A stretch of 64,000 nt of DNA from a gamma proteobacterium HIMB30 (lineage in GTDB: Bacteria > Pseudomonadota > Gammaproteobacteria > Pseudomonadales > Litorivicinaceae), in assembly GCA_000227525.2 (NCBI GenBank), contig AGIG01000028.1, positions 186,001-250,000 on the forward strand. The letters run 5' to 3'. The stretch's first letter is position 1. Each line of letters starts with the position of its first letter. Below the pieces are notes generated by a model, which saw nothing but the letters and a program-made list of their open reading frames with translations, searched no databases and was not told where the DNA came from. Shown in pieces: positions 10,269-34,769 of this stretch. The translations under genes and the position numbers were made by a program.

Positions 10269-10400
10269 TCGATACGATTGCGAGTGGCAATGCCTCACTT
10301 TGGGGTCGACTTTTCAAAACTTCGTTAGATGATTTAACCGAATACAGAGACGGCTACGATGCGGATCAACGGGGTGATTGAGCGAACTGAGAGACGTCAG

Positions 10401-14889: not shown

Positions 14890-14986
14890 GAAGCATTCAA
14901 ATGTAGTAAATATCTACTACCAAAGGCTTGTTGCGTAATGGCTTAATGATAATGCAAGGATTAGATGCGGTTCTAGCGATTGTCTA

Positions 14987-15015
14987 TTGACAAAAAGTGC
15001 TTGACACCTTATCTA
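14987..15015 (+). promoter_or_regulatory. Sigma-70 promoter for pqqA
   Basis: TTGACA (14987-14992), a 17-bp spacer and TATCTA (15010-15015) give a near-consensus promoter 72 nt upstream of pqqA. A second TTGACA inside the spacer (15001-15006) lacks a good -10 partner. The expected leader is about 65 nt and contains the inverted repeat at 15031-15057. Confidence 0.65.
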
Positions 15016-15030
15016 TTGTTTTGCAACGTG

Positions 15031-15057
15031 TTCCTACTGACCCAGTCAGTATAGGAA
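15031..15057 (+). repeat. Inverted repeat in the pqqA leader
   Basis: TTCCTACTGAC and GTCAG-TA-TAGGAA pair with one two-base bulge around a short loop, ending 29 nt before the pqqA start. It lies just downstream of the predicted transcription start, so it may be an operator or a stabilising 5-prime RNA hairpin. Confidence 0.5.
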
Positions 15058-15086
15058 TAATAAAAACGCTACTGGAGGTAGATATT

Positions 15087-15176
15087 ATGTGGCAAAAACC
15101 AACAGCAATCGAAATGTCATGCGGTTGTGAAATCAACATGTATGCTCCAGCAGAAGGCGATCGTCCTCTGTTCTGA
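15087..15176 (+). CDS. pqqA: PqqA, ribosomally made precursor peptide of PQQ
   Basis: A 29-residue peptide starting MWQKP, as is typical for PqqA, with the crosslinked pair E15 and Y19 in the required E-x3-Y spacing (CEINMY). PqqE joins these side chains and further processing yields PQQ. GGAGGT at 15074-15079 gives strong initiation. It carries two cysteines (C12, C14) immediately before the crosslinked glutamate and an acidic tail, neither of which is usual. A hairpin follows before pqqB. Confidence 0.93.
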   Translation: MWQKPTAIEMSCGCEINMYAPAEGDRPLF

Positions 15177-15185
15177 GTAATGCTG

Positions 15186-15205
15186 AGAGGGGCTTTTGCC
15201 CCTCT
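15186..15205 (+). terminator. Hairpin between pqqA and pqqB
   Basis: AGAGGGGC-TTTT-GCCCCTCT forms an 8-bp GC-rich stem 10 nt after the pqqA stop. There is no U-run directly after it, so it probably acts by partial termination or by stabilising a short pqqA transcript, giving an excess of precursor peptide over the enzymes. Confidence 0.7.
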
Positions 15206-15240
15206 GAGTTCCCATAAAAAAACAACAATAAGGGTTCTGC

Positions 15241-16146
15241 GTGGAATTAATTGTTCTTGGCGCAGCGGCTGGGGGTGGTCTTCCTCAATGGAATTGCGCT
15301 GGCGGTCAAAGCAGTCAGGTCTGGAATAAAACTCGATTACCTCAGTCGCAGGCGAGTGTTGCGATAGGTAATGAGCGCACTGGGTATGTGATCATCAACG
15401 CGTCGCCAGATCTTCGACAACAGATTCTTCAAACACCCCAACTACACCCAAAACCGAACCATCCAGACGGTGTTCGCAACACGCCAATCGCAGCGGTCAT
15501 AGTGACCAATGCGGACGTGGATAACGTAGCTGGCTTACTAAACTTGCGAGAGAAGCAACGATTTAGTATTTACGGTCCAACCAAGGTACTGGAAATCTTG
15601 CAAGAGAACTCAATTTTTGCGGTCTTAGATCCTGAATTTGTTACGCAGCGTCCACTCGAAACTACTGAAACGATAAGCCCGATTCCAGGAGTCGAAATCG
15701 AATTGTTTACGGTGGCGGGAAAAGCGCCTCTCTACCTCGAGGACTCTCTCGGAATTCAATCTGGAGATCTTGGATTCACAAGCGGTATCGAGATCCGCAC
15801 AGCAGCCAGTAAGACATTGGTGATCTCAAGTTGTGCACAAATCGATCAAAAACTGCGAGAACGAATCGAAACGGCAGACCACCTGCTTTTCGACGGTACC
15901 GTTTTCGAAGATGACGAGATGCCGCAACTTGGGCTCGGGGAAAAAACTGGAAGACGCATGGGTCACCTACCGATATCCGGGACCGATGGGCCAATCGTCC
16001 AGCTCGCCCATTGCAACTTAAAAACGAAGCGATTTTTCCACATTAATAACTCGAACCCTATTTGGGATGAACAATCCCTTGCTCATCGGACTATCCGGGA
16101 TGCAGGCTGGGATATTTGTCATGATGGATTGGTATTTGAAATATGA
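15241..16146 (+). CDS. pqqB: PqqB, metallo-beta-lactamase-fold hydroxylase of PQQ synthesis
   Basis: A 301-residue cytosolic protein of the PqqB family with the N-terminal signature GAAAGGGLPQWNC and the fold of metallo-beta-lactamases. Known PqqB acts on the excised Glu-Tyr product before PqqC. The start is GTG at 15241 with AAGGG upstream. Its stop overlaps pqqC (ATGA). Confidence 0.95.
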   Translation: MELIVLGAAAGGGLPQWNCAGGQSSQVWNKTRLPQSQASVAIGNERTGYVIINASPDLRQQILQTPQLHPKPNHPDGVRNTPIAAVIVTNADVDNVAGLLNLREKQRFSIYGPTKVLEILQENSIFAVLDPEFVTQRPLETTETISPIPGVEIELFTVAGKAPLYLEDSLGIQSGDLGFTSGIEIRTAASKTLVISSCAQIDQKLRERIETADHLLFDGTVFEDDEMPQLGLGEKTGRRMGHLPISGTDGPIVQLAHCNLKTKRFFHINNSNPIWDEQSLAHRTIRDAGWDICHDGLVFEI

Positions 16147-16907
16147 CGACGAAACTTTCTCGCGATGAATTTGAAGCTAAGCTGAGAGCAATCGGCGAAG
16201 CTCAATATCACAACAATCATCCTTACCATCATCGGATGTATCAAGGGCAGTGCTCAATCGACGAAATAAGGGCTTGGGCCCTCAATCGGTTTTGTTATCA
16301 ACGCATCATTCCTGTGAAAGATGCATTAATCATGGCCCGACTCAGTGAGACTGAAGATCGGCGTGAGTGGCGAGAAAGGATCGTTGATCATGACGGCGAG
16401 ATTGACGATCACCCCGAGGGTGGGTTACGCCGCTGGCTGGCGCTAACCAGCCAACTAGGATTTACCAAAGAATACGTGATGTCGATGCAAGGCGCCCTTC
16501 CCGCGACCCAATTTGCGTCCAACGCATATCTGACGTTTGTGCAGGAACGCACTGTACTTGAAGCTGTCGCATCCTCACTAACCGAACTGTTTTCGCCAAA
16601 TATCATTGCTGAACGGGTTCAGGGGATGCTTCAGAATTACGATTTCATTACTGAAGAAAGTCTCACCTATTTCTCGTATCGAAAGGCACAAGCGAACCGA
16701 GACTCGAACTGGGCGCTCGATTTTATCGATCGGACCGCCGAGACTCGGGAGGATCAAGAACGTTGCCTTAATGCGTTAAAATTCAAATGCAGCATGCTAT
16801 GGGCAATGCTCGACGCTCTCGCATCAGCCTATCATCTTGGGGGTACTATCCCGCCGGGCGCTTGGGATCCTCAGACACAAACCGGACTGCTGGACAAGAC
16901 CGCATGA
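16143..16907 (+). CDS. pqqC: PqqC, pyrroloquinoline-quinone synthase
   Basis: A 254-residue, cofactor-free oxidase that performs the final ring closure and eight-electron oxidation to PQQ. Typical PqqC features are visible, including YHHRMYQGQCS, WALNRFCYQ, ILD/DHDGE-like metal-free His-rich core and TYFSYRKAQANRDS. The length is normal. It overlaps pqqB and pqqD by 4 nt at each end. Confidence 0.97.
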   Translation: MTTKLSRDEFEAKLRAIGEAQYHNNHPYHHRMYQGQCSIDEIRAWALNRFCYQRIIPVKDALIMARLSETEDRREWRERIVDHDGEIDDHPEGGLRRWLALTSQLGFTKEYVMSMQGALPATQFASNAYLTFVQERTVLEAVASSLTELFSPNIIAERVQGMLQNYDFITEESLTYFSYRKAQANRDSNWALDFIDRTAETREDQERCLNALKFKCSMLWAMLDALASAYHLGGTIPPGAWDPQTQTGLLDKTA

Positions 16908-17188
16908 CGGTCGATCTGATCCCAGCCTCTGTGACGCCGCGATTTGATTATGGCGTGCGCCTGAAGCATGACAAAGTCCGAGAGCGCCACGTGGTACTGG
17001 GTCCTGAAATTCTTATTGAGTTAAACCAAACCGGTACTGCGATTATGAGTGAGATCGATGGCCAATCAACGATTACAGACATCATTTCTCGACTCGCGGC
17101 ACGGTTCGAAGTGAACCCCAATGACATCACTCAGGACGTTATTGAGTTCTGTACATCGATGGTAATGAGGCAGGTTTTGAGGACATGA
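16904..17188 (+). CDS. pqqD: PqqD, peptide chaperone
   Basis: A 94-residue winged-helix-like RiPP recognition protein that binds PqqA and presents it to PqqE. The family pattern GAxIMSEIDGQSTITDII-like segment is present near the middle. The start is the ATG at 16904, which overlaps the pqqC stop; a longer frame from 16787 lies inside pqqC. Its stop overlaps the pqqE start. Confidence 0.93.
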   Translation: MTVDLIPASVTPRFDYGVRLKHDKVRERHVVLGPEILIELNQTGTAIMSEIDGQSTITDIISRLAARFEVNPNDITQDVIEFCTSMVMRQVLRT

Positions 17189-18285
17189 GTCAGGTGACAA
17201 TTCCGGCACCACAAGTATTACTGGCCGAAGTGACACACCGATGTCCGCTACAATGCCCGTATTGCTCAAATCCAACCGAACTGATCAAGAAAGATACAGA
17301 GATCTCGACCACAGATTGGGGTCGTGTATTCGCCGAGGCAGCCGATCTTGGAGTACTCCAGGTCAGCATATCTGGAGGTGAGCCCGCAGCGCGCCGAGAC
17401 TTGACCGAGCTCATTCGTGCAGCACGAGATGCTGATCTTTACGTTAATCTCATTACTTCAGGTATCGGGCTAACGCAAGGTCGTCTGGATGATCTGGTTG
17501 AGGCTGGCTGCGATCACATTCAACTGTCTTTGCAAGATGTCGATTCTGACGGCGCAAAACTCATCAGCAACATGGACAAGAGTCTCGAACGAAAGCTCGA
17601 TTTTGCGCGCTGGGTACGCGAACGATCGGTCCCCCTGACCGTCAATGCGGTGATGCACCGGCTTAACCTTGACCGCCTTCCAGAGATAATTGAACTGGCG
17701 CTGGAACTCGGGGCAAGACGGCTTGAAGTAGCCAATGTGCAATACCACGGGTGGGCAGCACTAAATAAACAGGTCCTGATGCCAACGCAGGAGCAATCGT
17801 CTCGAACAAATCAGATTGTGGCCGAGGCAAGGGAGTCGTTAAATGGCCGGCTCCTCATTGATTATGTGCCAGTCGATCATTACGCCGAGTACCCAAAGTC
17901 CTGCATGAACGGATGGGGCCGTGTTGCGTTAATTGTGGCGCCGGATGGATCTGTTCTTCCCTGCCATAACGCAACCACGCTTAAGCACCTTTCTTTTCCA
18001 AATGTAAGGGATCAATCGTTGACCGCTATCTGGTATGAATCTTCAGCATTTAACGCTTATCGCGGTGATTCATGGATGCCAGAGATCTGCAGATCATGTG
18101 ACCGTAAAGAAATTGACTTCGGAGGCTGTCGTTGTCAGGCACTGGCAATCCTCGGTGATGCATCGGCAGCTGATCCTGTCTGCTCGCGAGCTCATCCGCA
18201 CTCACTTGTGATCGCAACGGATGAGAGCCCTCAAGCTGGCGAAGTCGCGACGAGCGAGCAAATCACCTACCGACCCAACAGTTGA
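17185..18285 (+). CDS. pqqE: PqqE, radical SAM enzyme crosslinking PqqA
   Basis: A 366-residue radical SAM/SPASM protein. C20, C24 and C27 (CPLQCPYC) bind the SAM [4Fe-4S] cluster, SISGGEP is the SAM-binding GGE motif, and C-terminal cysteines (CMNGWG, LPCHNA, CRSCD, GGCRC) bind auxiliary clusters. It forms the carbon-carbon bond between Glu and Tyr of PqqA. It is the last pqq gene; no pqqF-like protease or pqqG is visible in the window. Confidence 0.97.
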   Translation: MSQVTIPAPQVLLAEVTHRCPLQCPYCSNPTELIKKDTEISTTDWGRVFAEAADLGVLQVSISGGEPAARRDLTELIRAARDADLYVNLITSGIGLTQGRLDDLVEAGCDHIQLSLQDVDSDGAKLISNMDKSLERKLDFARWVRERSVPLTVNAVMHRLNLDRLPEIIELALELGARRLEVANVQYHGWAALNKQVLMPTQEQSSRTNQIVAEARESLNGRLLIDYVPVDHYAEYPKSCMNGWGRVALIVAPDGSVLPCHNATTLKHLSFPNVRDQSLTAIWYESSAFNAYRGDSWMPEICRSCDRKEIDFGGCRCQALAILGDASAADPVCSRAHPHSLVIATDESPQAGEVATSEQITYRPNS

Positions 18286-18306
18286 TACTAGGCCTAAGAA
18301 GCATTA

Positions 18307-18322
18307 ACTATCGCTAGATAGT
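18307..18322 (+). repeat. Small palindrome upstream of tupB
   Basis: ACTATC-GCTA-GATAGT lies 131 nt before the tungstate transporter. It is the only dyad I see in the 167-bp gap after pqqE, so it is a candidate operator or weak terminator. I found no copy at the other Mo/W operons. Confidence 0.25.
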
Positions 18323-18452
18323 GGATCGTTCAACTGTCACAGCTGTCAATCAGTCGGACTATATTGAACTACTCCAATAAGAATCGATCATTCTCATACA
18401 GTGACCTGAATGAACGAAAAAAGGTTGATTTACCCAAAAATCCAGACAAAAT

Positions 18453-19190
18453 ATGCATTCCTTCCCAAAAATGAAAAAAAACATATTTATGCTGATAGAA
18501 GCGTTCTCAGAGGCCTTTGGACTCATCTTATCTGCCGACGCAGATCTCTATGAGATCTTGTGGCTATCCATTCAGGTCAGTTTGACAGCGTTGCTCATCT
18601 CAATCGCACTCGGATTGCCGATTGGCACCACGTTGGCAATCGCAAATTTCCCTGGGAAGACTATTTGCATCACGGTCATTAACTCATTGATGGGCATGCC
18701 GCCGGTCGTCATCGGCTTGCTGGTCTATCTGGCCTTGTCTCGGTCAGGACCATTTGGTGTCTTCGGTTTACTCTACACACCAACCGCGATGGTGATTGCC
18801 CAAATGTTGCTGATCACCCCGATTATTGCAGCATTGACCTACCAAGTCATGGAAGACCTACATAAGGAATACCGAGACCTATTCTTCAGTCTCAGTATCC
18901 CACTCGACAAAGCGGTCGCCGCCTACCTGTGGGATGCCCGATATTCTCTGATCACAGCCGTCCTTGCAGGGTTCGGTCGAGCGATATCCGAAGTCGGCGC
19001 GGTAATGATCGTCGGCGGGAATATCGATCACCTCACGCGGGTAATGACCACGGCAATCGCGCTTGAAACCTCCAAAGGCGAGCTCTCGGTCGCCCTCGGG
19101 TTGGGAATCGTTTTATTAGTTCTCGCATTGGTCGTGAACGGATTAGTCACAACTGTACGCACTAGAGCACGGCACTACGGCTATGCGTGA
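18453..19190 (+). CDS. tupB: Tungstate ABC transporter permease TupB
   Basis: A 245-residue inner-membrane permease with about five helices and the BPD-transporter EAA region (FGRAISEVGAVMIVGGN). This sequence region is typical of TupB/WtpB-like tungstate permeases. It is followed by its ATPase with an 8-nt overlap and by the TupA binding protein. The start is uncertain, since neither the ATG at 18453 nor the one at 18471 has a clear ribosome binding site. Confidence 0.9.
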   Translation: MHSFPKMKKNIFMLIEAFSEAFGLILSADADLYEILWLSIQVSLTALLISIALGLPIGTTLAIANFPGKTICITVINSLMGMPPVVIGLLVYLALSRSGPFGVFGLLYTPTAMVIAQMLLITPIIAALTYQVMEDLHKEYRDLFFSLSIPLDKAVAAYLWDARYSLITAVLAGFGRAISEVGAVMIVGGNIDHLTRVMTTAIALETSKGELSVALGLGIVLLVLALVVNGLVTTVRTRARHYGYA

Positions 19191-19896
19191 AATCCGACAT
19201 TCTGGACAACCCAATCTACAAATCCGCATCAACAATCTTTGTCTCGATATGCGTGGTTCTCGGTTACTTGACCAAATTGATCTGATACTCAAACAACCCG
19301 GTGTAACGATGATTCTTGGACCGAACGGCGCGGGTAAAAGCCTTCTTTTGAAGTGCATCCATGGGCTGTTATTTCCAACATGGGGCTCTATCGACTTCGA
19401 TGGATTGAACAAGAATCCAAAGCAAGCGATGGTTTTTCAGAAGCCGATACTTCTTCGTCGTTCTGTCATGGACAACATGCGCTTTGCAGACCAAGGAACG
19501 CAGACCGACACTGAGCTAGAACAAGCGCTTGACTCAGTTCAGTTACTCGAAAAGATAGACCATCCTGCAACACAGCTCTCCGGTGGTGAACAGCAACGGC
19601 TCGCGCTTGCACGTGCGTTGTTGACCAAACCCGATCTTCTGCTGCTGGATGAGCCAACCGCGAGCCTTGATCCCGCATCGGTTGTGATTATCGAGAAGCT
19701 GATTCAACAGGCCACTCAACAACACATCAAGAGTATTTTCATCTCGCATGATATCGGCCAGGCAAAACGCTTATCGGCAGACGTTATTTTTTTAAATCGT
19801 GGACAGGTCGTTGAGTATTCAGACGCTGCTTCATTTTTTTCGGATCCCCACTCCGATGAGGCAAGAGCCTTTTTGAGTGGGGAAATTGTTTTGTAG
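19183..19896 (+). CDS. tupC: Tungstate ABC transporter ATP-binding protein TupC
   Basis: A 237-residue ABC ATPase with GPNGAGKS (Walker A, about residues 46-53), signature LSGGEQQR, LLLDEPT (Walker B) and the switch histidine in SHDIG. There is no C-terminal TOBE regulatory domain, as is usual for TupC. Overlaps at both sides place it in one transcript with tupB and tupA. Confidence 0.9.
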   Translation: MREIRHSGQPNLQIRINNLCLDMRGSRLLDQIDLILKQPGVTMILGPNGAGKSLLLKCIHGLLFPTWGSIDFDGLNKNPKQAMVFQKPILLRRSVMDNMRFADQGTQTDTELEQALDSVQLLEKIDHPATQLSGGEQQRLALARALLTKPDLLLLDEPTASLDPASVVIIEKLIQQATQQHIKSIFISHDIGQAKRLSADVIFLNRGQVVEYSDAASFFSDPHSDEARAFLSGEIVL

Positions 19897-19924
19897 TCCT
19901 CTAACAACGAGAGAGTTAAAAACC

Positions 19925-20737
19925 ATGAGACATCCAATTATCAAACAGCTCAGCTTTGTTGCACTTTGCAGTTTCAGTATCTTTTCATTTGCAGACTCAA
20001 TCATTGTCCAGTCGACCACCTCCACCAAAAACTCCGGGCTCTACGATTACATTCTTCCAAAAGTGTCGACAGACATCGGCATCAAAGTGAACGTGGTTGC
20101 GGTCGGTACAGGGCAGGCCATCAAAAATGCGCAACGCTGTGATGGAGATGTCTTACTCGTTCATGCGAAACCGTCGGAAGAGCGGTTTGTTGCACAGGGT
20201 TTTGGCATTGAGCGGTTTGATCTTATGTATAACGATTTCGTGATTATCGGTCCATCTGACGATCCAGCGTTAATCAAGGGATCGAATGATGTGTCCGAGG
20301 CGCTTAAAAAAATCGCTGTAGCCGAGGCCATCTTCACATCGCGGGGAGATGACTCAGGAACACATAAAGCAGAAGTCAGGCTTTGGAAAGACAGTACGAT
20401 CGACCCTACCAAAGCATCAGGACAGTGGTATCGGGAAACAGGATCCGGAATGGGTGCAACACTCAACATCGCTGTCGGAATGAATGCTTACGCCCTAACC
20501 GATCGAGCAACCTGGACCAAATTTGGTAACAAGGGCGACTTTCAGATTCACGTCGAGGGGGATCAAAAGCTTTTCAATCAATACGGCGTGATTCTCGTGA
20601 ATCCGGAAAACTGTCCAAACGTGAACGCGGCGGCTGGTCAAAAATTGATTGATTGGTTATTGTCAAAAACAGGACAAGACGCCATCGCGTCATATCAGGT
20701 GAACGGTAATCAACTGTTCTACCCCAATGCTCGTTAG
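19925..20737 (+). CDS. tupA: Tungstate-binding periplasmic protein TupA
   Basis: A 270-residue exported protein (signal peptide to about FSFA) with the oxyanion-binding signature QSTTSTKNSGL right after cleavage and SRGDDSGTHKAE, both diagnostic of TupA. Known TupA proteins bind tungstate far more tightly than molybdate. I chose the ATG at 19925 because the frame upstream overlaps tupC and would spoil the signal peptide. The gene order B-C-A differs from the common A-B-C order. Confidence 0.93.
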   Translation: MRHPIIKQLSFVALCSFSIFSFADSIIVQSTTSTKNSGLYDYILPKVSTDIGIKVNVVAVGTGQAIKNAQRCDGDVLLVHAKPSEERFVAQGFGIERFDLMYNDFVIIGPSDDPALIKGSNDVSEALKKIAVAEAIFTSRGDDSGTHKAEVRLWKDSTIDPTKASGQWYRETGSGMGATLNIAVGMNAYALTDRATWTKFGNKGDFQIHVEGDQKLFNQYGVILVNPENCPNVNAAAGQKLIDWLLSKTGQDAIASYQVNGNQLFYPNAR

Positions 20738-20760
20738 CCATCGATCGTTAAAGGAAGAGC

Positions 20761-21510
20761 ATGCGCCGCCAATCAATTTTAGCCGCAGGTAGCATGCTCG
20801 GTTTGCTTCCGAAACTGTTGAAAAACTGCTTCGGTACAACCCCGTCATCCATCACAACATCATTTGGGCCTTCAGGCGCGCTCAGGTCAAAAATTGAAGC
20901 GGGACAGTCTTGTGCGCTGTTTATTAGCGCAACTGCTGCCCACACCGATGCATTAGTAGAAAAGCAAATCCTCCAAACTTCCAACCTATTGGGGCTCAAC
21001 CCGACTGTTTTACTTCATCAGAAATCACTGAACGCATCTAAGGAGTCGGCGCTGAATCGCATTCTGGACCCAAATCTAACGCTCGGAATGTCGACCACCG
21101 GGCTCGATCCCTCGGCAGATGAATTCGAGATATTACATAAGATTTCGTCAATAGCTGGCGTAAACCTGCAGGCACTGCGATCACGGACGCGAATTATTAC
21201 CGGTGGTCGCGAGACTCCCAATTCACCGCAAGGTCGGAATCAATATGGGTGGATCATGGAGACCCAAGATGTCGATCTGCTACTGACCTTTCAATCCAAC
21301 GCGATTGAGGCGATTGCGGACAATCCACAACTCCAGTTCTGCAACCTTCCGGAGAAAGTCAGGGTCAACGGATTCTATGGTATTGGTATTTCTTCGGACG
21401 CGGACCAAGAACTGGTTCGGTTTTATCATTGGGTGTTAAGCGACTTCGGTCAGGAGTATCTGAGAGAAAACGGGTTCGAGGCCATCACAAACAGCCGTTC
21501 AGCCGGATGA
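20761..21510 (+). CDS. ModA-like periplasmic oxyanion-binding protein without its own transporter
   Basis: A 249-residue exported protein with RR in its N-terminal signal (MRRQSILAAG). The early FGPSGALRSKIEAGQSCALFIS segment matches the first binding loop of ModA-type proteins, and TTGLDPSADEFEI resembles the second. It follows tupA by 23 nt with a good GGA site, so it is probably co-transcribed with the tungstate transporter and may present another oxyanion to TupBC, or act as a sensor. Its 3-prime end overlaps the convergent regulator by 26 nt. Confidence 0.75.
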   Translation: MRRQSILAAGSMLGLLPKLLKNCFGTTPSSITTSFGPSGALRSKIEAGQSCALFISATAAHTDALVEKQILQTSNLLGLNPTVLLHQKSLNASKESALNRILDPNLTLGMSTTGLDPSADEFEILHKISSIAGVNLQALRSRTRIITGGRETPNSPQGRNQYGWIMETQDVDLLLTFQSNAIEAIADNPQLQFCNLPEKVRVNGFYGIGISSDADQELVRFYHWVLSDFGQEYLRENGFEAITNSRSAG

Positions 21511-22351
21511 CACCCAGGTCCGTCACGTCGTAACCCGCATAGCGGTCAACTTCCACCCGAAACTCATCAGACAGAGCGAAGCGCAGGAGGGTTTGAATTT
21601 CAGTTTCAAAATATGCGAACCGGTCAATCAACAAATCAAAATGTTCGATGCAAATAGGGACGAAACCTAATCGGTACCGGTCAGCAAACGAACGCAGTCC
21701 GAAAGTAGCGTCAGCCTCACCCTCGACAATTGACAATGCGGCTTCGGTCTCGTTTCGAGCGGTTCGAACGGATTGAATGGAGAGTAGGTCAACCTGAGAT
21801 CTCGACAGATGAGTTTCGAACAACAGCTGCGCGGCAGCACCTGCTTGCCTTGAGACAAATCGCTTACCTTGAAGATCAGCGAGTTGTTGAATATGAGAGT
21901 CAGGACGCACAATCAGACCGCGTTCGCGTTTTGCCCAATGCATCAAGATCGATGGCGAGTGTTCAAGGTAGTCTTTAACGAACTCGGTGTTCCACCCCGG
22001 ATTCGCCGAGTTTTCAATATGGATGCCGCAAGCAATACCCTCCCGATTCTTGTATCGCTCAAACCCATCCATCGAACCATTGAGAGAAGCAGGAAGTCCA
22101 CAACCCGAAGCACTTATTGCCCAATCAAACAACGGATCGTGGGAGCCCAGAATGACTGCGGGACGTTGGGTTACGTCGCCCGTGAGCCCACCCTTTTGAT
22201 GAATCCACTGGGTAATTTCAAGTTTAGGGAATAAAAGTTTGCCAGTTGCCTTGGCGCATGGAATCTCTCCGCGAGAAGCCAAATCATAGACCTTTCGCTC
22301 CTTCAGCCGGAGTAACCCTGCAACTTCCTTTGTCGTCAGAAATTCGGACAA
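21485..22351 (-). CDS. Helix-turn-helix regulator with a periplasmic-binding-protein-like domain (candidate Mo/W sensor)
   Basis: A 288-residue cytosolic protein. Residues 1-52 form an excisionase/MerR-type DNA-binding helix-turn-helix (LTTKEVAGLLRLKERKVYDL), and the remainder is a PBP-like domain of the kind linked to oxyanion binding. Regulators of this build are common near molybdate/tungstate uptake genes. Convergent placement against tupBCA and the ModA-like gene suggests it senses Mo or W and controls uptake. This is inference; the sequence does not identify the ligand. Confidence 0.75.
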   Translation of the reverse strand: MSEFLTTKEVAGLLRLKERKVYDLASRGEIPCAKATGKLLFPKLEITQWIHQKGGLTGDVTQRPAVILGSHDPLFDWAISASGCGLPASLNGSMDGFERYKNREGIACGIHIENSANPGWNTEFVKDYLEHSPSILMHWAKRERGLIVRPDSHIQQLADLQGKRFVSRQAGAAAQLLFETHLSRSQVDLLSIQSVRTARNETEAALSIVEGEADATFGLRSFADRYRLGFVPICIEHFDLLIDRFAYFETEIQTLLRFALSDEFRVEVDRYAGYDVTDLGVIRLNGCL

Positions 22352-22402: not shown

Positions 22403-23098
22403 TTAGAAATAAGGAATCGCAACCTGTTTGATTCGCTCAACAAGAAGGTGACTGCTGATTGCAAAATTAACACCTGCGTCGATGTCCGCCTCTTTGGTGA
22501 AAATCGCCGCGATCATGCCCACCAAAACACCATTCTCGTCGACAAGTGCACCACCCGACGAACCCGGATTGACGGCTGCGTCTGTTTGAATAAAGTCTTC
22601 GATCGGATTAAAGCCGATTCCGACACGATGGATTCCAGAGACCACGCCGCAGCTAATGCTCACCCCCAAACCAAAGGGGTTGGCAATCGCACAGACGTGC
22701 TGGCCAGGGGTCACACTGGTGGTCGTTAAGTGGAGTGCCGGTCGAAAGGTTGGGGTCCGGAGTAAAGCGATATCTGCATCCCTGTCTATCCACAGAATCT
22801 CGGCGTCATGCAAAGTACCCTGATCGGAATCACGAATCTGAACGCGCGTTGCCTGATTAACCACATGTGCTGCAGTTAGTACCAAATCCGAGTTGCGTTT
22901 CGGTTCAAGCGAGATTGAAATGCCGCTCCCCTCGGGTGCGACGCCTCGAGGAGCACCAAAGCCCGGCTTTTCGTGCCCAGGCCAGGTGGGGATGACGGCA
23001 ATGACTGAGCGGTGCGTGTTATTCCAAGTGTGCTTGCCATGCTCAGCCAATGCAACGGTCGTACTGAACGCCAATAGCAGCGCTACAATTACCCTCAT
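22403..23098 (-). CDS. Exported trypsin-like (S1C/HtrA-type) serine protease without PDZ domain
   Basis: A 231-residue periplasmic protein with signal peptide (to about VALA) and a complete trypsin-like triad: H in LTAAHVVN, D in DADIALLR and S in NPGSSGGAL. No PDZ domain follows, unlike DegP/DegS. Its start overlaps the stop of the WD40-cytochrome gene (ATGA), placing it at the tail of the formate dehydrogenase operon. A quality-control or processing role there is inference. Confidence 0.85.
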   Translation of the reverse strand: MRVIVALLLAFSTTVALAEHGKHTWNNTHRSVIAVIPTWPGHEKPGFGAPRGVAPEGSGISISLEPKRNSDLVLTAAHVVNQATRVQIRDSDQGTLHDAEILWIDRDADIALLRTPTFRPALHLTTTSVTPGQHVCAIANPFGLGVSISCGVVSGIHRVGIGFNPIEDFIQTDAAVNPGSSGGALVDENGVLVGMIAAIFTKEADIDAGVNFAISSHLLVERIKQVAIPYF

Positions 23099-24414
23099 TG
23101 AGGCGATGTGGCTCGCTTCAGGTAACTAATCAGGTCAGCTCGATCTTGTTCGCCTTTAATCCGTTGCACCGGCATTTTCGACCCCGGTGTGACGACATCA
23201 GGGCCGTCTTTAAATAACCGATCAATGGTCTCTTCATTCCAAACAAGGTCCATCGCAATCAGTTCTTTAGAATACGGATAATCAACAACGGCACCGACCT
23301 TCCGTCCAAATACGCCATACAAAGTTGGACCTGCACGACGCTTACTTGAAGGTGTCAAGCTGTGACATACGCTACATTTTCGAGCGAACTGTTTTTCACC
23401 GTTATCGATCGGCTGATCCGGATGGAAGCGGCGATCACTGTCAGCCAGAGGATGGGGCACAATAAAGTCGCTGAGATTGATTTTCGTAATCCAGTCATCC
23501 AAGCCTGCGAAATAAAGGGTCTGCGCATTATTCCCCAGTTGCATGGCCCATATCGGGCCTTTCACCGCATTAAAATCGTGCTGAATCTCACCGACCACAG
23601 CATCGGCGATCACAATCCGCCCCTCGGCGGTTCCGAAAGCCATTTTTTCAGACGCTCGATCAATCGAGACGGCTAGTACTGGTGGGCCGCCTACCCAGAG
23701 ATCGATGGATGGTCCCGAGTTATCCAGACTGATGCTCTTCATCACCCCATTGGATCCACCAAAAGCGATGACGTTGAGCTCCGCAGAGAGTTCCATCACA
23801 TTGATGCCAAATCCGTTTCGAGCCAGGCTTCGAACATAGTCCCCTGAACTGATGTTCCATAAACGGATGTGACCGTCACCGCCTGCTGACACAATCTGGT
23901 CGTCATTGGGCATAAATTGAGCGGCATTCACAGGACCGCGATGTCCCTCAAAGAATCGGATCAATGACTGGTCCGATATATCCCACAATCCGACTCTACG
24001 GTCCCAGCTTGATGATAAAAGACGCTGGCTCGCATCATCGAATTCAAGATGGATGACCTTGGCGGTGTGTCCGTTGAGGGCGACGGGCTGGGGTATAGCA
24101 GAGGGATTCTTCAGATCAGAAACAGCCCACAACAGGATTTGGTTATCGTCGCCAGCTGTCGCGAGCCATTCACCGTCAGGGGAGAAAGTCGCCGTGTTGA
24201 CCGCTGCGTTATGTCCTATCAACTGTTTGAGCTCAGTCATTGACTCTGTGTCCCAAACAACTGCTGTGTAATCAAAGCTCGTGCTCACGAGCAGATTTAG
24301 CTCAGTTGAATGCGCGAGACCCTTGATTGGCCCGCCGTGAGCAGTGTACCGATCAAAAGCCATCGACTTAGCGACAATAAATATCGAGGCGAAAAAAAGA
24401 ATCACAAATCGCAT
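23095..24414 (-). CDS. WD40 beta-propeller fused to a C-terminal cytochrome c domain
   Basis: A 439-residue exported protein (signal peptide to about KSMAF). Roughly residues 25-315 are WD40 repeats (for example VVWDTES, LLWAVSD, GLWDISD, RLWNISS). The last 110 residues are a class I cytochrome c with KCSVCHS and a distal methionine in GSKMPVQR. The ATG at 24414 has GGAG upstream. It follows the TusA-like gene of the formate dehydrogenase operon, so it may bind or accept electrons from the periplasmic enzyme; this is unproven. Confidence 0.85.
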   Translation of the reverse strand: MRFVILFFASIFIVAKSMAFDRYTAHGGPIKGLAHSTELNLLVSTSFDYTAVVWDTESMTELKQLIGHNAAVNTATFSPDGEWLATAGDDNQILLWAVSDLKNPSAIPQPVALNGHTAKVIHLEFDDASQRLLSSSWDRRVGLWDISDQSLIRFFEGHRGPVNAAQFMPNDDQIVSAGGDGHIRLWNISSGDYVRSLARNGFGINVMELSAELNVIAFGGSNGVMKSISLDNSGPSIDLWVGGPPVLAVSIDRASEKMAFGTAEGRIVIADAVVGEIQHDFNAVKGPIWAMQLGNNAQTLYFAGLDDWITKINLSDFIVPHPLADSDRRFHPDQPIDNGEKQFARKCSVCHSLTPSSKRRAGPTLYGVFGRKVGAVVDYPYSKELIAMDLVWNEETIDRLFKDGPDVVTPGSKMPVQRIKGEQDRADLISYLKRATSPQ

Positions 24415-24450
24415 ACTGATCTCCAAGCTCAGCTTGTGTCATCCGTTCCG

Positions 24451-24744
24451 TTAGTCAGCCATCCTTATAATGAATTCGTAGGGTGGATCGATCGATTGCA
24501 TCGAGACCACGTGGTGACCAGCGAGCTTGCAATAGGCAGGAACATCTTTCAGTGTCGTCGGGTCGCTGGTTTGCAATCGAATCGTCGAGCCTGGCTGGAG
24601 CGGCTCTATCCGCTTTTTTAATTTGAGTACTGGTAATGGACACCGGAGACCGACCACGTCGATCTCCAGGTCCCAATCGGCACGATCAATCAAGTCTGAC
24701 TGAGGGCGCCGACTGGACTTCCGCCGACGAGAAGCCCATTTCAC
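24451..24744 (-). CDS. TusA-like sulfur-transfer protein of the formate dehydrogenase operon
   Basis: A protein of up to 97 residues with the TusA/SirA core VVGLRCPLPVLKLKKRI, whose CPxP cysteine carries persulfide in family members. The start is uncertain: the ATG at 24744 gives a long basic extension overlapping the preceding micro-gene out of frame, while a TTG at 24693 gives a domain-sized 80-residue protein. Its place in an fdh operon suggests sulfur supply to the Mo/W cofactor, in concert with FdhD encoded at 39405-40292. That link is inference. Confidence 0.75.
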   Translation of the reverse strand: MKWASRRRKSSRRPQSDLIDRADWDLEIDVVGLRCPLPVLKLKKRIEPLQPGSTIRLQTSDPTTLKDVPAYCKLAGHHVVSMQSIDPPYEFIIRMAD

Positions 24745-24811
24745 TCAGCACGAAATACGCGCCGACAGATACAACCGCGGTAAAAGCAAACGCTGCTAAC
24801 ATCGTCTTCAT
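24686..24811 (-). CDS. 41-residue single-pass membrane micro-protein in the fdh operon
   Basis: The ATG at 24811 overlaps the fdhC stop codon (ATGA) and opens a 41-residue frame ending at 24686. The sequence begins MKTMLAAFAFTAVVSVG, continues AYFVLSEM and ends SAPSVRLD, i.e. one hydrophobic helix with a short polar tail. Translational coupling and normal composition support a real gene. It may be a small subunit or assembly factor of the membrane-bound formate dehydrogenase; I do not recognise a family. Confidence 0.65.
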   Translation of the reverse strand: MKTMLAAFAFTAVVSVGAYFVLSEMGFSSAEVQSAPSVRLD

Positions 24812-25989
24812 CGTGCGTCTCCAACTTGTTGAATCGGAGCACCTTTAGCTTCCTCTTGTTCAACCCACAGATCGTGATGCTGGCGTGCCCATTCAAGATC
24901 GACCTGGCCGTTGCCCATCGCATCAAATGCACCTTCCATCCCAACACTGCCGATGTAGATGTGTGCGACGATCGCAATAATCATCGTAATGGCCACAATC
25001 GCATGCCATAAATGTGCGAGTTGCATTTCTTCATGCGGAAGTAATTCAGTTGACAAACCCATTGCCGGGAAGATCGTATTAATCATCCCGAAAGTCTTGG
25101 CGAACATTGGCAACTCGAATGGGAATAACAAGGAGAGCCCTGACATTGAGACTGAAGCGCCAAGAATGATCGTCATCCAAAAGATCAGCTTTTGGCCGCC
25201 ATTGAACTTCCGTGCCGATGGGTGAGCGTTTCCAACAATACCACCGCCCTTTGCGAACCACTCGAGATCGAGTTTGTTTGGAATGTTGTGTGCAACCCAC
25301 ATCACGAAAATCGCCACTAATGATGCCATAAAGACCCAGGCAATATTGTTGTGTACCCAAATAGAGAACGTTGCAATTGCTGAATTGGCTTCATGTCCGA
25401 AAACAGGAATGATGACCGAGCGACCAAACAACAGTAATAGCCCCGTACACGCAAGCATGATGAATGAGCCTGCGAGACACCAATGCCCAAAACGTTCAAA
25501 CGACTTGAATCGTTCGATAGTCTGCCCAGACGGCCCGCCTTCAATTGTCATGCGTCCGCGCAGGAAGTAAAAGGCGGCCAGTGCGATGATAATGCCGCCA
25601 ATACCATAGCCAGCAAATGCTTGAATCCCACCCTGCCGTGTCAATAACCAGCCCATACCGCCGTCTTGCACTAAAACTTCCGCTGCGTGGCTATTATTGG
25701 ATACTTTGATTTCGGTCTCAGAATACCGGATACCGCGGTATAAATCTGAGCTTGAGACTCCCCCTAATGAACCGAGCTTGTCAGAGATCGCTTTCGCGTT
25801 CTCGGGGTTCCCTAAATTTTCACGACGAAATGATTCGTCGACTTCGAGTCCTTTCTGTCGCGCAAGAATATCTTCTAGCGTCTGCGCTCCGCCTGTTGAT
25901 GCACGTTGACCCTCGTCTTGGGAATGAGCCGGAGTCACGGCAAACGTTAAAAGTGCGATCAAATACGCACCCAATACCTTTAATTTCAT
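24808..25989 (-). CDS. fdhC: Formate dehydrogenase cytochrome b (gamma) subunit
   Basis: A 393-residue protein with signal peptide (to about PAHS), an N-terminal extension of about 130 residues with one extra helix, and a C-terminal four-helix cytochrome b556 domain of the FdnI/FdhC type. Helix histidines (for example FGHWC, HNIA, AHIYIG) can ligate two hemes. It would anchor the formate dehydrogenase and pass electrons to the quinone pool. GAGG precedes the ATG. The gap to fdhB holds a strong hairpin. Confidence 0.9.
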   Translation of the reverse strand: MKLKVLGAYLIALLTFAVTPAHSQDEGQRASTGGAQTLEDILARQKGLEVDESFRRENLGNPENAKAISDKLGSLGGVSSSDLYRGIRYSETEIKVSNNSHAAEVLVQDGGMGWLLTRQGGIQAFAGYGIGGIIIALAAFYFLRGRMTIEGGPSGQTIERFKSFERFGHWCLAGSFIMLACTGLLLLFGRSVIIPVFGHEANSAIATFSIWVHNNIAWVFMASLVAIFVMWVAHNIPNKLDLEWFAKGGGIVGNAHPSARKFNGGQKLIFWMTIILGASVSMSGLSLLFPFELPMFAKTFGMINTIFPAMGLSTELLPHEEMQLAHLWHAIVAITMIIAIVAHIYIGSVGMEGAFDAMGNGQVDLEWARQHHDLWVEQEEAKGAPIQQVGDAR

Positions 25990-26061: not shown

Positions 26062-26670
26062 TTAGCCGCCTTTCTTCTCGTAGGCAGTTCCCCAGCCCCA
26101 TGCACCTGAACCGAAGCCACGGGTCACGACTCGCTCACGATAAATCGCAGCGACATCGTCACCGTCGCCGGCCAAAAGTGCTTTGGTCGCGCACTGCTCG
26201 GCACACGCAGGAAGCTTTCCTTCAGCAATACGGTTACTTCCGTATTTCTGGAATTCAGCCTGCGAGTTGTCCTCTTCAGGACCACCGGCACAGAATGTGC
26301 ACTTATCCATCTTGCCTCGTGAACCGAAGTTACCCGCTTGCGGGAACTGTGGCGCACCGAACGGACACGCATAGAAGCAGTAGCCGCAACCGATACACAG
26401 GTCTTTTGAGTGCAACACGACACCGTCGTCTGTTTGGTAAAAACAGTCGACAGGACAGACAGCCATACAAGGCGCGTCTGAACAGTGCATACAAGCCACA
26501 GAGATTGACCGCTCGCCTGGCTTACCATCGTTGATGGTCACAACCCGACGGCGGTTAATGCCCCAAGGCACCTCGTTTTCGTTCTTACACGCGGTTACGC
26601 AAGCGTTGCATTCGATGCAGCGCTCGGAGTCGCATAGGAACTTGGCTCTCGCCTTTCCACCTAATGACAT
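26062..26670 (-). CDS. fdhB: Formate dehydrogenase iron-sulfur (beta) subunit
   Basis: A 202-residue ferredoxin-like subunit with four cysteine groups for [4Fe-4S] clusters: CIECNAC...C, CMHCSDAPC...C, CIGCGYC...C and CTFC...CAEQC. It links the catalytic subunit to the cytochrome b. A strong GGAGG site precedes the ATG, and it follows fdhA by 12 nt. Confidence 0.93.
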   Translation of the reverse strand: MSLGGKARAKFLCDSERCIECNACVTACKNENEVPWGINRRRVVTINDGKPGERSISVACMHCSDAPCMAVCPVDCFYQTDDGVVLHSKDLCIGCGYCFYACPFGAPQFPQAGNFGSRGKMDKCTFCAGGPEEDNSQAEFQKYGSNRIAEGKLPACAEQCATKALLAGDGDDVAAIYRERVVTRGFGSGAWGWGTAYEKKGG

Positions 26671-26682
26671 AATTTATCCTCC

Positions 26683-29571
26683 TTACGCCGGCATGATTCG
26701 ACATAGGGTACATTTCGATTCCTGCATTTGAGTCACCGAGTCGTAGCCGTATGTACAAACTGTGTTAGCGGATTCCCCAAGAACGTATGGATCAGCTCCA
26801 TCTGGGTACTTGGCACGAAGGTCTTCGCCTTGGAACATTCCACCAAAATGGAATGGCATAAATGCAACACCGACGCCAACACGCTCGGTGACCATTGCTT
26901 GGACTTTCACTTTTCCGCCTTCAGGGCCTTCAACCCAGACCATGTCTCCATCACGAACGCCGAGATTATTTGCGTCACGCGGATGGACTTCGACAAACAT
27001 CTGTTGCTGAAGCTCTGCTAGCCAAGGGTTTGAACGTGTTTCATCACCACCGCCCTCGTACTCAACCAAACGACCTGAAGTCAAAATGATTGGGAAGTCT
27101 TTCGAGAAGTCGTTCTTCTGGATCGACTCATAGAGAGTTGGCAGACGATACGCAAACCGATCTTCGTAGGTTGGATAATCCTTCACGAGATCGCGACGGT
27201 TTGTGTACAGAGGCTCACGATGCAACGGTACTGGATCTGGGAAGTTCCATACCACTGTCCGTGCTTTTGCGTTACCAAATGGCGCACACTCGTGCTTAAT
27301 CGCGACGCGCTGGATACCACCTGACAAGTCAGTCTTCCAGTTCGTCTTCGCACCAGCAACCTTATCGATCGCCGCACGCTCATCGGCTGTCAGATCCTTA
27401 TCCCAGCCCAGATCCATCAGCATTTGCATGGTGAATTCTGGATAGCCGTCTTTGATCTCAGAGCCTTGTGAGTACACACCTTCAGCGAGTAGATTTTCGC
27501 CGTCTCTTTCAACACCGAATCGTGCACGGAAGGTCAAACCACCTTTCGAAACGGGCTTCGACATATCGTAGAGGTTTGGTGTACCTGGGTGCTTCATCTC
27601 AGCTGTGCCCCAAGCTGGCCATGGCATACCGTAATAATCACCGTCGCAAGGACCGCCAACTGCTTGCAGTGTGGTCTTATCAAACGTGTGCTGGTTCGCC
27701 ATATGCGCTCTGATCCGCTCCGGAGACTGGCCGGTGTAACCGATCGTCCACATACCACTATTGAATTCACGGGTAATGTCTTCAATCAGCGGCTCATCAC
27801 CATTGACCTTAATGTTGCGGAAGAAACGATCAGAGAAACCGAACTTGTCCGCAAACAACTTCATGATCACGTGATCTGGCTTCGACTCGAACAATGGATC
27901 GACTACTTTCTCACGCCACTGGATTGAGCGGTTTGACGCTGTTACCGAGCCATACGTCTCAAACTGCGTGGTCGTTGGAAGTAGATACACACCATCTTTA
28001 CGGTCATGGAGGACTGCGGAAACGGTTGGGTGTGGATCGACCACGACCAACAGGTCGAGTTTTTCCATCGCAACCTTCATATCAGCCTGACGCGTCTGAG
28101 AGTTTGGAGCGTGACCCCAAAGAACCATTGCGCGAGTATTGTTTGGCTGACCAAGGTTTTCTTTCGCTTCCAAGACACCGTCGATCCAACGAGAAACAGG
28201 AATACCCGTCTCGTTCATCATGGCCTTGTCCTTACCATCTTTGGTCTTCATAGTCGCAAAACGACCCTTCAACCAATCGAGGTCTTCTTCCCAAACACGC
28301 GCCCAGTGCGCCCATGAGCCTGGCTTCAAGCCGTAGTAGCCTGGCAGTGTGTTCGCAAGGACACCAAGGTCTGTTGCGCCCTGAACGTTACAGTGACCAC
28401 GGAAGATGTTGGTTCCGCCACCTGACGTACCCATGTTGCCCAAAGCCAACTGCAGGATACAGTAAGCGCGGGTATTGTTATTTCCGTTGGTATGCTGTGT
28501 TCCACCCATACACCAAATGACAGTGCCTGGACGATTATTAGCCAGAGTACGCGCTACACGCTCGAGCTGTGAGCCCGGAGTTCCGGTAACACGCTCGACT
28601 TCCTCTGGGTTCCACTTGGCGACTTCATTTTTGATGTCGTCCATACCCCAGACACGAGTACGAATGAACTCTTTGTCTTCCCAGCCGTTCTCAAAGACGT
28701 GCCACAAAATACCCCAAATCAACGCGACATCAGTGCCTGGACGGAAACGCACGTACTCGTCCGCGTGAGCGGCAGTTCGTGTGAAACGCGGATCGCAGAC
28801 GATCACAGGAGCGTTGTTTTGCTCTTTTGCTTTCATGATGTGCTGCAGAGACACAGGATGCGCTTCAGCAGGGTTACCACCAATCAAAAAGATCGCTTTT
28901 GAGTTATGAATATCGTTGTACGAGTTTGTCATCGCACCATAGCCCCAGGTGTTCGCAACACCTGCTACAGTGGTTGAGTGACAAATACGCGCCTGGTGGT
29001 CAACGTTGTTCGTGCCCCAGTAAGCAGCAAACTTACGATACAGATATGACTGCTCGTTGTTTGTCTTCGCAGAACCCAACCAGTACACACTGTCTGGACC
29101 GCTCTCTTCACGAATCTTGAGCATTTGATCGCCAATTTCATTGATCGCCTGCTCCCATGAGATACGGGTGTAGGTTCCATTGACCAACTTCATTGGATAC
29201 TTCAAACGACGTTCACCGTGGCCGAGTTCGCGAACCGCTGAACCCTTCGCACAGTGTGCACCCAGGTTAAACGGAGAATCCCAACCAGGCTCCTGTCCAA
29301 CCCAAACGCCATCACGCACTTCTGCCTGGACTGTACAGCCCACTGAGCAGTGCGTACAAACGCTCTTCTTAATTTCAGTTTTTGCATCGCTCGACGCAGA
29401 AGCGGCTGCTTCTACTGAACGTGGCGTCATCGAAAACGCAGCTAAACCACCCACAGCCAGACCAGTAGAACGTAAGAACGTCCGGCGGTCCATTTTATGG
29501 GAGACCACGTTTTTCAGTAAGGATGACACCTGGGAGCCAACTGCTACCCCATTCGCCTTTTTCCTTAGCAT
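26683..29571 (-). CDS. fdhA: Formate dehydrogenase catalytic (alpha) subunit, Tat-exported, Cys type
   Basis: A 962-residue molybdopterin oxidoreductase that oxidises formate to CO2. A Tat signal (MDRRTFLRSTG, residues 27-37) indicates a periplasmic enzyme. C72, C75, C79 and C107 bind the proximal [4Fe-4S] cluster. The metal ligand is C197 followed by the catalytic H198 (QARICHST), so it is a cysteine, not selenocysteine, enzyme. Metal choice (Mo or W) cannot be read, but the tungstate-rich context makes W plausible. GGAGG lies upstream of the ATG. Confidence 0.96.
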   Translation of the reverse strand: MLRKKANGVAVGSQVSSLLKNVVSHKMDRRTFLRSTGLAVGGLAAFSMTPRSVEAAASASSDAKTEIKKSVCTHCSVGCTVQAEVRDGVWVGQEPGWDSPFNLGAHCAKGSAVRELGHGERRLKYPMKLVNGTYTRISWEQAINEIGDQMLKIREESGPDSVYWLGSAKTNNEQSYLYRKFAAYWGTNNVDHQARICHSTTVAGVANTWGYGAMTNSYNDIHNSKAIFLIGGNPAEAHPVSLQHIMKAKEQNNAPVIVCDPRFTRTAAHADEYVRFRPGTDVALIWGILWHVFENGWEDKEFIRTRVWGMDDIKNEVAKWNPEEVERVTGTPGSQLERVARTLANNRPGTVIWCMGGTQHTNGNNNTRAYCILQLALGNMGTSGGGTNIFRGHCNVQGATDLGVLANTLPGYYGLKPGSWAHWARVWEEDLDWLKGRFATMKTKDGKDKAMMNETGIPVSRWIDGVLEAKENLGQPNNTRAMVLWGHAPNSQTRQADMKVAMEKLDLLVVVDPHPTVSAVLHDRKDGVYLLPTTTQFETYGSVTASNRSIQWREKVVDPLFESKPDHVIMKLFADKFGFSDRFFRNIKVNGDEPLIEDITREFNSGMWTIGYTGQSPERIRAHMANQHTFDKTTLQAVGGPCDGDYYGMPWPAWGTAEMKHPGTPNLYDMSKPVSKGGLTFRARFGVERDGENLLAEGVYSQGSEIKDGYPEFTMQMLMDLGWDKDLTADERAAIDKVAGAKTNWKTDLSGGIQRVAIKHECAPFGNAKARTVVWNFPDPVPLHREPLYTNRRDLVKDYPTYEDRFAYRLPTLYESIQKNDFSKDFPIILTSGRLVEYEGGGDETRSNPWLAELQQQMFVEVHPRDANNLGVRDGDMVWVEGPEGGKVKVQAMVTERVGVGVAFMPFHFGGMFQGEDLRAKYPDGADPYVLGESANTVCTYGYDSVTQMQESKCTLCRIMPA

Positions 29572-29882: not shown

Positions 29883-30497
29883 CTACTCGATACGGAAAGA
29901 TTCTTGCTCGATACCCATCAATAGATGGCCTAGGGAGCCAACTGGGGCATAAAGCACAGCACTTTCCGCCTTTTCGAGATCGCTAAAACAATGCGCTGCC
30001 CAGGGAGCAATATGCGCATTGAAAAATTCTTTTTGGACCTGCAACGGCATGGGTTGCCCGAAAGCACCAGTAATCATCCCGGCCATCATTTCACACAATG
30101 CCCCCAGGTGATCTTCTGGCTCAGGGATTCCCTGCTTTCGCTGAATACCTAGTCCGCGCATCTTTGCGCGCAAATCAGCGAGTGGCTTCTCATGCAGGAA
30201 GCCTGTGAGATAGTAGCTCGCGTAAGGCAATACCTCGCCTCTGCCGACACCAATAAATAAAATATTGTATTCACGCTCGACCGCGCCTGCGGTCATTGAT
30301 TTCGCGAGCTGAGAAAGCGTGTTGATTGCTGACCCAACCTCACCAGCATCTCCCTGGAGAGCACCGAGTTGCTCGAGCGTTGATTGGTCCGGAACCTGAA
30401 GCAACAGATTACCTAGCAGCGCGTATAGGTGAGCACGAACCTCATCCTCTGGCGCAATCGGCGGGGTAGTCATTTCAATCGTTGAATCTACGGTCAT
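29883..30497 (-). CDS. TorD-family chaperone for formate dehydrogenase
   Basis: A 204-residue all-helical TorD/DmsD-like protein with the family segment EYNILFIGVGRGEVLPYASYYLTGFLHEKPL. Members bind Tat signals of molybdoenzymes and hold them until the cofactor is inserted. Its position between DUF3306 and the fdh structural genes identifies FdhA as the likely client. Confidence 0.88.
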   Translation of the reverse strand: MTVDSTIEMTTPPIAPEDEVRAHLYALLGNLLLQVPDQSTLEQLGALQGDAGEVGSAINTLSQLAKSMTAGAVEREYNILFIGVGRGEVLPYASYYLTGFLHEKPLADLRAKMRGLGIQRKQGIPEPEDHLGALCEMMAGMITGAFGQPMPLQVQKEFFNAHIAPWAAHCFSDLEKAESAVLYAPVGSLGHLLMGIEQESFRIE

Positions 30498-34712: not shown

Positions 34713-34769
34713 TTGACACCACCTCGTACACTGAGACAAGTCATATCTATCATGACATAGGAGATAGCC

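Follow-up and report, generated by a model that had tools for sequence, protein, structure and literature searches.

Among described systems, the formate dehydrogenases FdnGHI (Fdh-N) of Escherichia coli and FDH3 stand closest to the locus studied here. We take Fdh-N to have neither a microprotein nor a WD40-cytochrome, and its beta subunit to end in a C-terminal transmembrane (TM) helix, which the beta subunit of 202 amino acids (aa) described below does not have. Cytochrome cd1 nitrite reductase has an eight-bladed d1 propeller and an N-terminal cytochrome c, and WD40 propellers are typical protein-docking platforms. DUF3305, DUF3306, a TAT protein and a 4Fe-4S protein are neighbours of fdh operons in PMC4464133, and no WD40 or cytochrome c protein is named in the excerpt of that paper used here. 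The window analysed in this work is a stretch of 64,000 nucleotides (nt) of the gamma proteobacterium HIMB30 (assembly GCA_000227525.2, contig AGIG01000028.1, positions 186,001 to 250,000), whose genome comprises 2.17 Mb in 36 contigs. It contains an FDH3-type formate dehydrogenase operon followed by genes encoding a 41-aa microprotein, a TusA-like protein, a protein in which a WD40 propeller is fused to a cytochrome c (WD40-cytochrome) and a protease. The microprotein and the WD40-cytochrome almost certainly belong to the FDH3 system; in the sampled bacteria both are nearly confined to species with FDH3, and they are probably unnoticed parts of the enzyme. The genes, numbered from the first letter of the window, are the following:

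26683..29571, minus strand: fdhA, formate dehydrogenase alpha subunit with a twin-arginine translocation (Tat) signal; molybdopterin domains, with RRTFLRSTG and RICHSTT in the sequence
26062..26670, minus strand: fdhB, FDH3-type iron-sulfur subunit, 202 aa; NF038355, 342.6 bits (cut-off 240)
24808..25989, minus strand: fdhC, cytochrome b subunit with a long N-terminal extension; TIGR01583, 131.1 bits, residues 158-379
24686..24811, minus strand: microprotein, 41 aa, single TM helix, FDH3-associated family; 23-member alignment, survey, and proportions of synonymous (pS) and nonsynonymous (pN) differences
24451..24693, minus strand: TusA-like sulfur-carrier protein, 80 aa; PF01206, 68.8 bits, CPLP motif
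23095..24426, minus strand: seven-bladed WD40 propeller fused to a C-terminal cytochrome c; Pfam and structure model; alternative ATG at 24414
22403..23098, minus strand: trypsin-like (HtrA-related) protease without PDZ domain, leader-like N-terminus; Trypsin_2, 87.5 bits

The locus encodes an FDH3-type formate dehydrogenase, predicted from its sequence to face the periplasm and to oxidise formate. The beta subunit scores well above the FDH3 cut-off of NF038355 and the gamma subunit above that of TIGR01583 (115.85 bits), while the alpha subunit is below the Fdh-alpha cut-off of TIGR01591 (471 against 666.25 bits); this model is not specific for FDH3, so the shortfall weakens the equivalog claim alone. 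The presumed active-site position of fdhA holds Cys and not selenocysteine (Sec). Histidines 169, 213, 329 and 343 of FdhC are among the residues invariant across 29 sequences and, by analogy with Fdh-N, are taken to be the b-heme ligands. The structure model of FdhC has a predicted local distance difference test score (pLDDT) of 78, with low confidence in the residue ranges 19-36 and 58-107, and gives no hint of partners.

The four genes downstream of fdhABC, on the minus strand, are those stated in an earlier note made from the letters alone. Pfam agrees with its WD40-cytochrome c fusion (Cytochrom_C, PF00034, 32.0 bits against a cut-off of 21.3) and with its PDZ-less protease, since Trypsin_2 was found and no PDZ domain was found by Pfam in the 231 aa of this protein. 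The TusA-like label is sustained by the PF01206 domain, although the protein stays below the NCBIfam TusA equivalog cut-off (62.6 against 78 bits). The genes had been described as joined mostly by 4-nt overlaps, which is true of two of the four junctions, fdhC/microprotein and WD40-cytochrome/protease, and not of the other two. The TusA-like open frame begins at 24744, and comparison with locus L054 of the same genus makes the TTG at 24693 its likeliest start, so that the microprotein/TusA-like junction is most likely an 8-nt overlap, as in that locus. The TusA-like and WD40-cytochrome genes are separated by 24 nt, or by 36 nt should translation begin at the ATG at 24414.

In a phylum sample of 398 genomes, 61 show FDH3_beta above its cut-off. 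The microprotein profile matches 31 genomes, and in 30 of them, all with FDH3, the microprotein shares a contig with fdhB, at a distance of 1,427-14,263 bases. The remaining match, in genome G656 (22.9 bits), falls within a 727-aa frame; this genome is without FDH3 above the cut-off, and the match was judged spurious. The WD40-cytochrome scores at least 420 bits in 22 genomes, all of them with FDH3, at 1,995-12,666 bases from fdhB, and the next score, 174 bits, belongs to WD40-only proteins. All 22 genomes also carry the microprotein, and eight of the 30 microprotein genomes are without the WD40-cytochrome. Fisher p values for association with FDH3, which ignore ancestry, are 5e-27 for the microprotein (counting G656 against it) and 3e-20 for the WD40-cytochrome.

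In a reverse search, the WD40-cytochrome alignment was compared with 84,980 species genomes, and the best 80 of 550 relatives were analysed. Within the stretch covered, fdh genes are present at 72 of the 80 loci, the microprotein at 71, a protease match at 13 and a TusA-like gene at three; the protease of L131 scores 209 bits with the profile of the protease subfamily described below and is thus probably an ordinary HtrA-like protein. Seven of the eight loci without fdh genes belong to genomes with FDH3_beta elsewhere, and the eighth (L124) starts at a contig end; the microprotein was found in five of these eight genomes, 1.5-3.1 kb from fdhB on the same contig. In 18 plasmid records the WD40-cytochrome is covered to at least 80%, and seven of the eight regions opened show FDH3 genes. 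The Methylobacterium bullatum plasmid region with a WD40-cytochrome is unannotated and shows no fdh match in the stretch scanned. The microprotein query matches 64 plasmid records in four roseobacter genera (40 of the 64 listed); the two opened show the order fdhA-fdhB-fdhC-microprotein, with the microprotein directly following fdhC and no WD40 gene. In the plasmid records examined the microprotein is a 'hypothetical protein' where it is annotated at all. The FDH3 type with these partners is found in many marine roseobacters and some rhizobia.

The distribution was also placed on an FdhA tree of 75 rows, built by a quick method with support from the Shimodaira-Hasegawa-like approximate likelihood-ratio test (SH-aLRT). 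Labels were set by hand, per locus for the microprotein, the WD40-cytochrome and TusA and per genome for the protease. The microprotein labels of L086, L088 and L094 come from genome-wide matches just outside the fetched stretch, and that of L115 from a genome-wide match after 10.5 bits in the locus scan; order-sample rows (L054, L118-L120) and plasmid rows were scored on the fetched stretch alone. The 75 rows contain 35 with the microprotein, 28 with the WD40-cytochrome and seven each with TusA and the protease. A clade of 24 rows that includes the window holds 21 microproteins, 16 WD40-cytochromes, five TusA and seven proteases, a second clade of 16 rows holds 14, 12, two and none, respectively, and the remaining 35 rows show none of the four. 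The minimum numbers of state changes are five (microprotein), seven (WD40-cytochrome), three (TusA) and four (protease). This distribution makes the microprotein a constant companion, the WD40-cytochrome a frequent one, and TusA and the protease occasional ones. The partnership with formate dehydrogenase that the earlier note had proposed, as opposed to chance neighbourhood, is therefore strengthened for the WD40-cytochrome and more so for the microprotein, and weakened as a single four-gene module, TusA and the protease being present in 7/75 rows each. Free variation of the neighbours among genomes with this fdh type, which the same note had set against its own proposal, is rejected for the first two proteins and largely accepted for the last two. 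We give an even chance to the overall description of the locus as an FDH3 with two family-specific accessory proteins, the microprotein and the WD40-cytochrome, and two optional helpers, TusA and the protease. The FdhA of the window groups with the same-genus row and three same-order rows (SH-aLRT 99), and this group joins (SH-aLRT 99) twelve rows, among them Sagittula, Alloyangia, Salipiger, Sulfitobacter and Tateyamaria, a grouping which suggests that the operon was acquired from an alphaproteobacterium.

Several observations weigh against this overall description of the locus. The profiles were seeded mostly from FDH3 loci, and divergent members elsewhere could be missed. Neither protein is present in 31 of the 61 FDH3 genomes, 29 of which sit in the 35-row FdhA clade, wholly from the class of the window; with half of the FDH3 genomes lacking both, neither is required for FDH3 as such. 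In a class sample of 369 genomes, three genomes with a full-length WD40-cytochrome were followed among the matches listed, and in G131 (472 bits), G211 (379 bits; 2.75 kb of surroundings covered) and G087 (376 bits) the stretches covered around the gene contain no FDH genes. In both G131 and G211 another contig carries FDH3_beta, and the microprotein was not found in their FDH3 contig stretches (9.0 and 4.9 kb, respectively). G087 (93% complete, about 300 contigs) shows no FDH3 above the cut-off. Finally, FdhC retains its invariant histidines; with the route to quinone apparently intact, the enzyme has no need of another outlet.

The 41-aa microprotein, proposed by the earlier note, behaves as a real gene in its conservation, in its pS far above pN and in its presence in 30/398 genomes. 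M1, L22 and R39 are invariant in an alignment of 23 members; residues 4-22 form the hydrophobic stretch, Lys is at position 2 and the window tail ends V-R-L-D. The same-genus copy is 90% identical (pS 0.86, pN 0.06), and ten pairs from five sequences within the lineage show pS of 0.74-0.99 and pN of 0.06-0.20. The 23 members scanned have no common Pfam or NCBIfam model: NCBIfam models match at most 4/23 (best E 0.18) and Pfam models at most 2/23 (a capsid model without relation to it, at E 0.00029, being the best), none of them credibly. Among solved structures no credible relative was found (best E 2.4, flagellin). Very weak microprotein-like frames adjoin fdhC in L105 (6559-6771) and in L251 of Sinorhizobium meliloti (5265-5531); both were left out of the counts, and given these frames the family may be wider than counted. 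In L037, a Tateyamaria omphalii plasmid, the region 7786-10393 with fdhC, the WD40-cytochrome and the microprotein is frame-broken, by decay or sequencing error; there the microprotein is seen only in pieces over two frames and was scored as absent.

That the microprotein is a small single-TM subunit which stabilises or assembles FdhC/FdhB is a reading that we would accept and doubt in equal measure. Its N-terminus would then be inside and its conserved V-R-L-D-like tail outside. An assembly factor or regulator of FdhC insertion, which is no subunit of the finished enzyme, is the less probable alternative, one we doubt without finding it far-fetched: the protein is tiny, its gene may precede or follow the WD40 gene or lie kilobases off, and some relatives have quite different tails, but the 4-nt overlap directly after fdhC, in the window and in the same-genus locus, suggests translation in step with the subunit.

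The AlphaFold2 model of the WD40-cytochrome, made with 43 sequences, has a mean pLDDT of 92.2 and a predicted template modelling score (pTM) of 0.87. It shows 28 strands that form seven blades at residues 25-317, followed, after residue 340, by a helical cytochrome c. C351, C354 and H355 of the CxxCH motif (351-355) and M418 are invariant in 26 and in 43 sequences; CxxCH with a distal Met places the domain in class I cytochrome c, and heme binding is predicted. Invariant columns amount to 21/100 in the cytochrome domain against 9/296 in the propeller. The best Foldseek matches of the model are the bacterial WD40 domain 5yzv (PkwA) and WDR5, the best 60 of 1007 profile matches among solved structures are all WD40-type propellers (by name and part of the profile matched), and the library matches are general WD40-type models and Cytochrom_C only (for Pfam, among the best 25 of 44 families). 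Among the matches listed, the nearest named relatives are three gammaproteobacterial metagenome-assembled genomes (MAGs) and a Litorivicinus record, with 67-73% identity, and the next is a Litoricola MAG with 58%. The WD40-cytochrome diverges in step with fdhC: their distances correlate with r 0.85 over 62 loci, the highest of ten gene pairs in a comparison without an unlinked control gene, where fdhA and fdhB reach r 0.70.

The strict conservation of the heme domain makes electron transfer likelier than a mere scaffold. A role of the WD40-cytochrome as facultative periplasmic redox partner of FDH3 is a real possibility, to which we give somewhat less than an even chance. The propeller would dock on the periplasmic side of the enzyme, and the c heme would pass electrons drawn from the enzyme on to the cytochrome c pool, alongside the quinone route through the intact FdhC. 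The protein could thus act as a side outlet or a sensor, with electrons reaching quinone without it. A further elaboration, which we consider improbable, makes FDH3 a branched five-subunit enzyme in which formate electrons would reach either quinone, via FdhC, or the periplasmic cytochrome c pool, directly via the WD40-heme subunit, and in which the microprotein would be a docking pin with its invariant Arg tail in the propeller channel. Arg peptides insert into the propeller channel of WDR5. The Arg of the microprotein tail is also kept in L055-L058, L070 and L076, where the WD40-cytochrome was not found, and this weighs against a docking pin.

The TusA-like gene and the protease gene show a narrower distribution. 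Relatives of the TusA-like protein directly follow the microprotein in L054 and L121-L123 (window lineage), more divergent ones follow it in L055, L056 and L058 (three genomes, same order), and in two further loci, L083 and L094, a TusA-like gene adjoins the WD40-cytochrome. FdhD, MobA-like and ModA-like proteins are encoded farther along in the window, consistent with a local cofactor island where FdhD would receive sulfur from TusA. A supply of sulfur by TusA, through FdhD, for the molybdenum or tungsten cofactor is only a little short of an even chance.

The protease shows an H78, D109 and S181 triad which, with C136 and C150, is invariant in 14 sequences. It is below the curated HtrA model (TIGR02037, 135 bits against 416.2) and below every other HtrA cut-off listed. 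A subfamily profile of 14 members, all taken from beside FDH3 or beside the WD40-cytochrome, was searched in 339 genomes and gives 288-425 bits in six of them and at most 240 bits in the others. The six genomes all have FDH3 and the WD40-cytochrome; the protease is inside the FDH3 locus in two (window and G612), and in the other four it is at least 55 kb away or on another contig. Relatives with PDZ are found in L065, L140, L160, L181, L188, L243 and L245, and without PDZ in the window and in L246 (G630). Longer forms of this FDH3-associated protease, in frames of 719-758 aa, lie outside the FDH3 locus in the WD40-cytochrome genomes G405 and G380 (L243 1402-3558 and L244 1243-3516); Pfam gives two trypsin stretches and one PDZ in that of L243.

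The quality-control role suggested by the earlier note gains slightly from this subfamily, present in 6/339 genomes, all with FDH3 and the WD40-cytochrome. It is unlikely, in our judgement, that the protease has the task, in some lineages, of policing the enzyme after export. A similarly unlikely reading gives the WD40-cytochrome the part of a scaffold for docking or assembly, or of a redox-sensing maturation checkpoint, that forms a quality-control module with the protease. The docking habit of WD40 propellers, the best fold matches to 5yzv and WDR5, and the occurrence of the protease subfamily only with the WD40-cytochrome, directly after it in the window lineage, speak for such a scaffold; against it, conservation within the protein is highest in the heme domain, where CxxCH and Met418 are invariant, and this protease is present in only six of at least 19 WD40-cytochrome genomes among the 339 searched. 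Should the microprotein and the WD40-cytochrome be two overlooked subunits, enzymes that have been purified or transplanted may be incomplete, and a direct outlet from formate to cytochrome c would alter how much energy formate oxidation yields. The microprotein is a clean test case of how tiny proteins escape notice.

Other features of the region are the following:

21485..22351, minus strand: regulator with a helix-turn-helix and a periplasmic-binding-protein-like domain, after the protease; PF12727, PF12728
29643..29843, minus strand: formate_TAT-like small protein, upstream of fdhA; TIGR02811, 35 bits, below the cut-off of 48.45
29883..30497, minus strand: TorD/NarJ-type chaperone; PF02613, 109 bits
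30596-31255, minus strand: DUF3306 gene; PF11748, 65.7 bits
31252-32058, minus strand: DUF3305 gene; PF11749, 117.5 bits
39405..40292, minus strand: FdhD sulfurtransferase; PF02634, 247.7 bits

Relatives of the regulator are present in 15 of the 80 loci of the reverse search (best 80 of 550 relatives). The DUF3306 and DUF3305 genes are customary FDH3 neighbours, and the gene order is kept in three of the plasmid loci opened. A second, divergent cytochrome c is encoded at 33951-34739, upstream in the same FDH gene cluster (PF00034, 23.4 bits). On the strand opposite to the FDH operon, 13702-21510 contains pqqBCDE and the genes of an ABC transporter, presumably of the tungstate type, that has two substrate-binding proteins. 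The WD40-cytochrome might serve another periplasmic dehydrogenase, for instance one dependent on pyrroloquinoline quinone (PQQ), and lie near FDH3 through shared C1 metabolism; pqqBCDE is about 5-8 kb from the WD40 gene of the window, and pqq genes also follow it in Tateyamaria. However, none of the 80 loci of the reverse search has pqqB, pqqC or pqqE beside it, among 75 other FDH3 or plasmid loci scanned these genes occur in Tateyamaria only, and nearly every genome with the WD40-cytochrome has FDH3. The neighbourhoods nearly refute this partner, which is most improbable and was rejected on these grounds.

The FDH3 enzyme is known, and the microprotein and the WD40-cytochrome appear undescribed within the literature searched: in the open-licence PMC literature no WD40-cytochrome or microprotein of formate dehydrogenase was recognised, and no dedicated family model was found for either. 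The TusA-like protein shares PF01206 and the CPLP motif with TusA/YedF (FdhU), and the alpha subunit of the window has Cys and not Sec. The TusA-like protein has a single domain, whereas YedF has two domains according to the part of PMC5322559 that describes it. The protease has Trypsin_2, the H-D-S triad and a leader-like N-terminus in common with HtrA/DegP, and differs in the absence of PDZ and in forming a separate high-scoring subfamily with two invariant Cys. The WD40-cytochrome resembles cytochrome cd1 nitrite reductase in having a beta-propeller and a cytochrome c on one chain, but it has seven WD40 blades and a C-terminal cytochrome c, and is not NirS-like. The locus as a whole is like those of E. 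coli FdnGHI (Fdh-N) and FDH3 in its alpha, beta and gamma subunits, the Tat signal, the cytochrome b gamma subunit and the TorD-type and formate_TAT genes upstream, and to the plan of Fdh-N it adds the microprotein and the WD40-cytochrome c.

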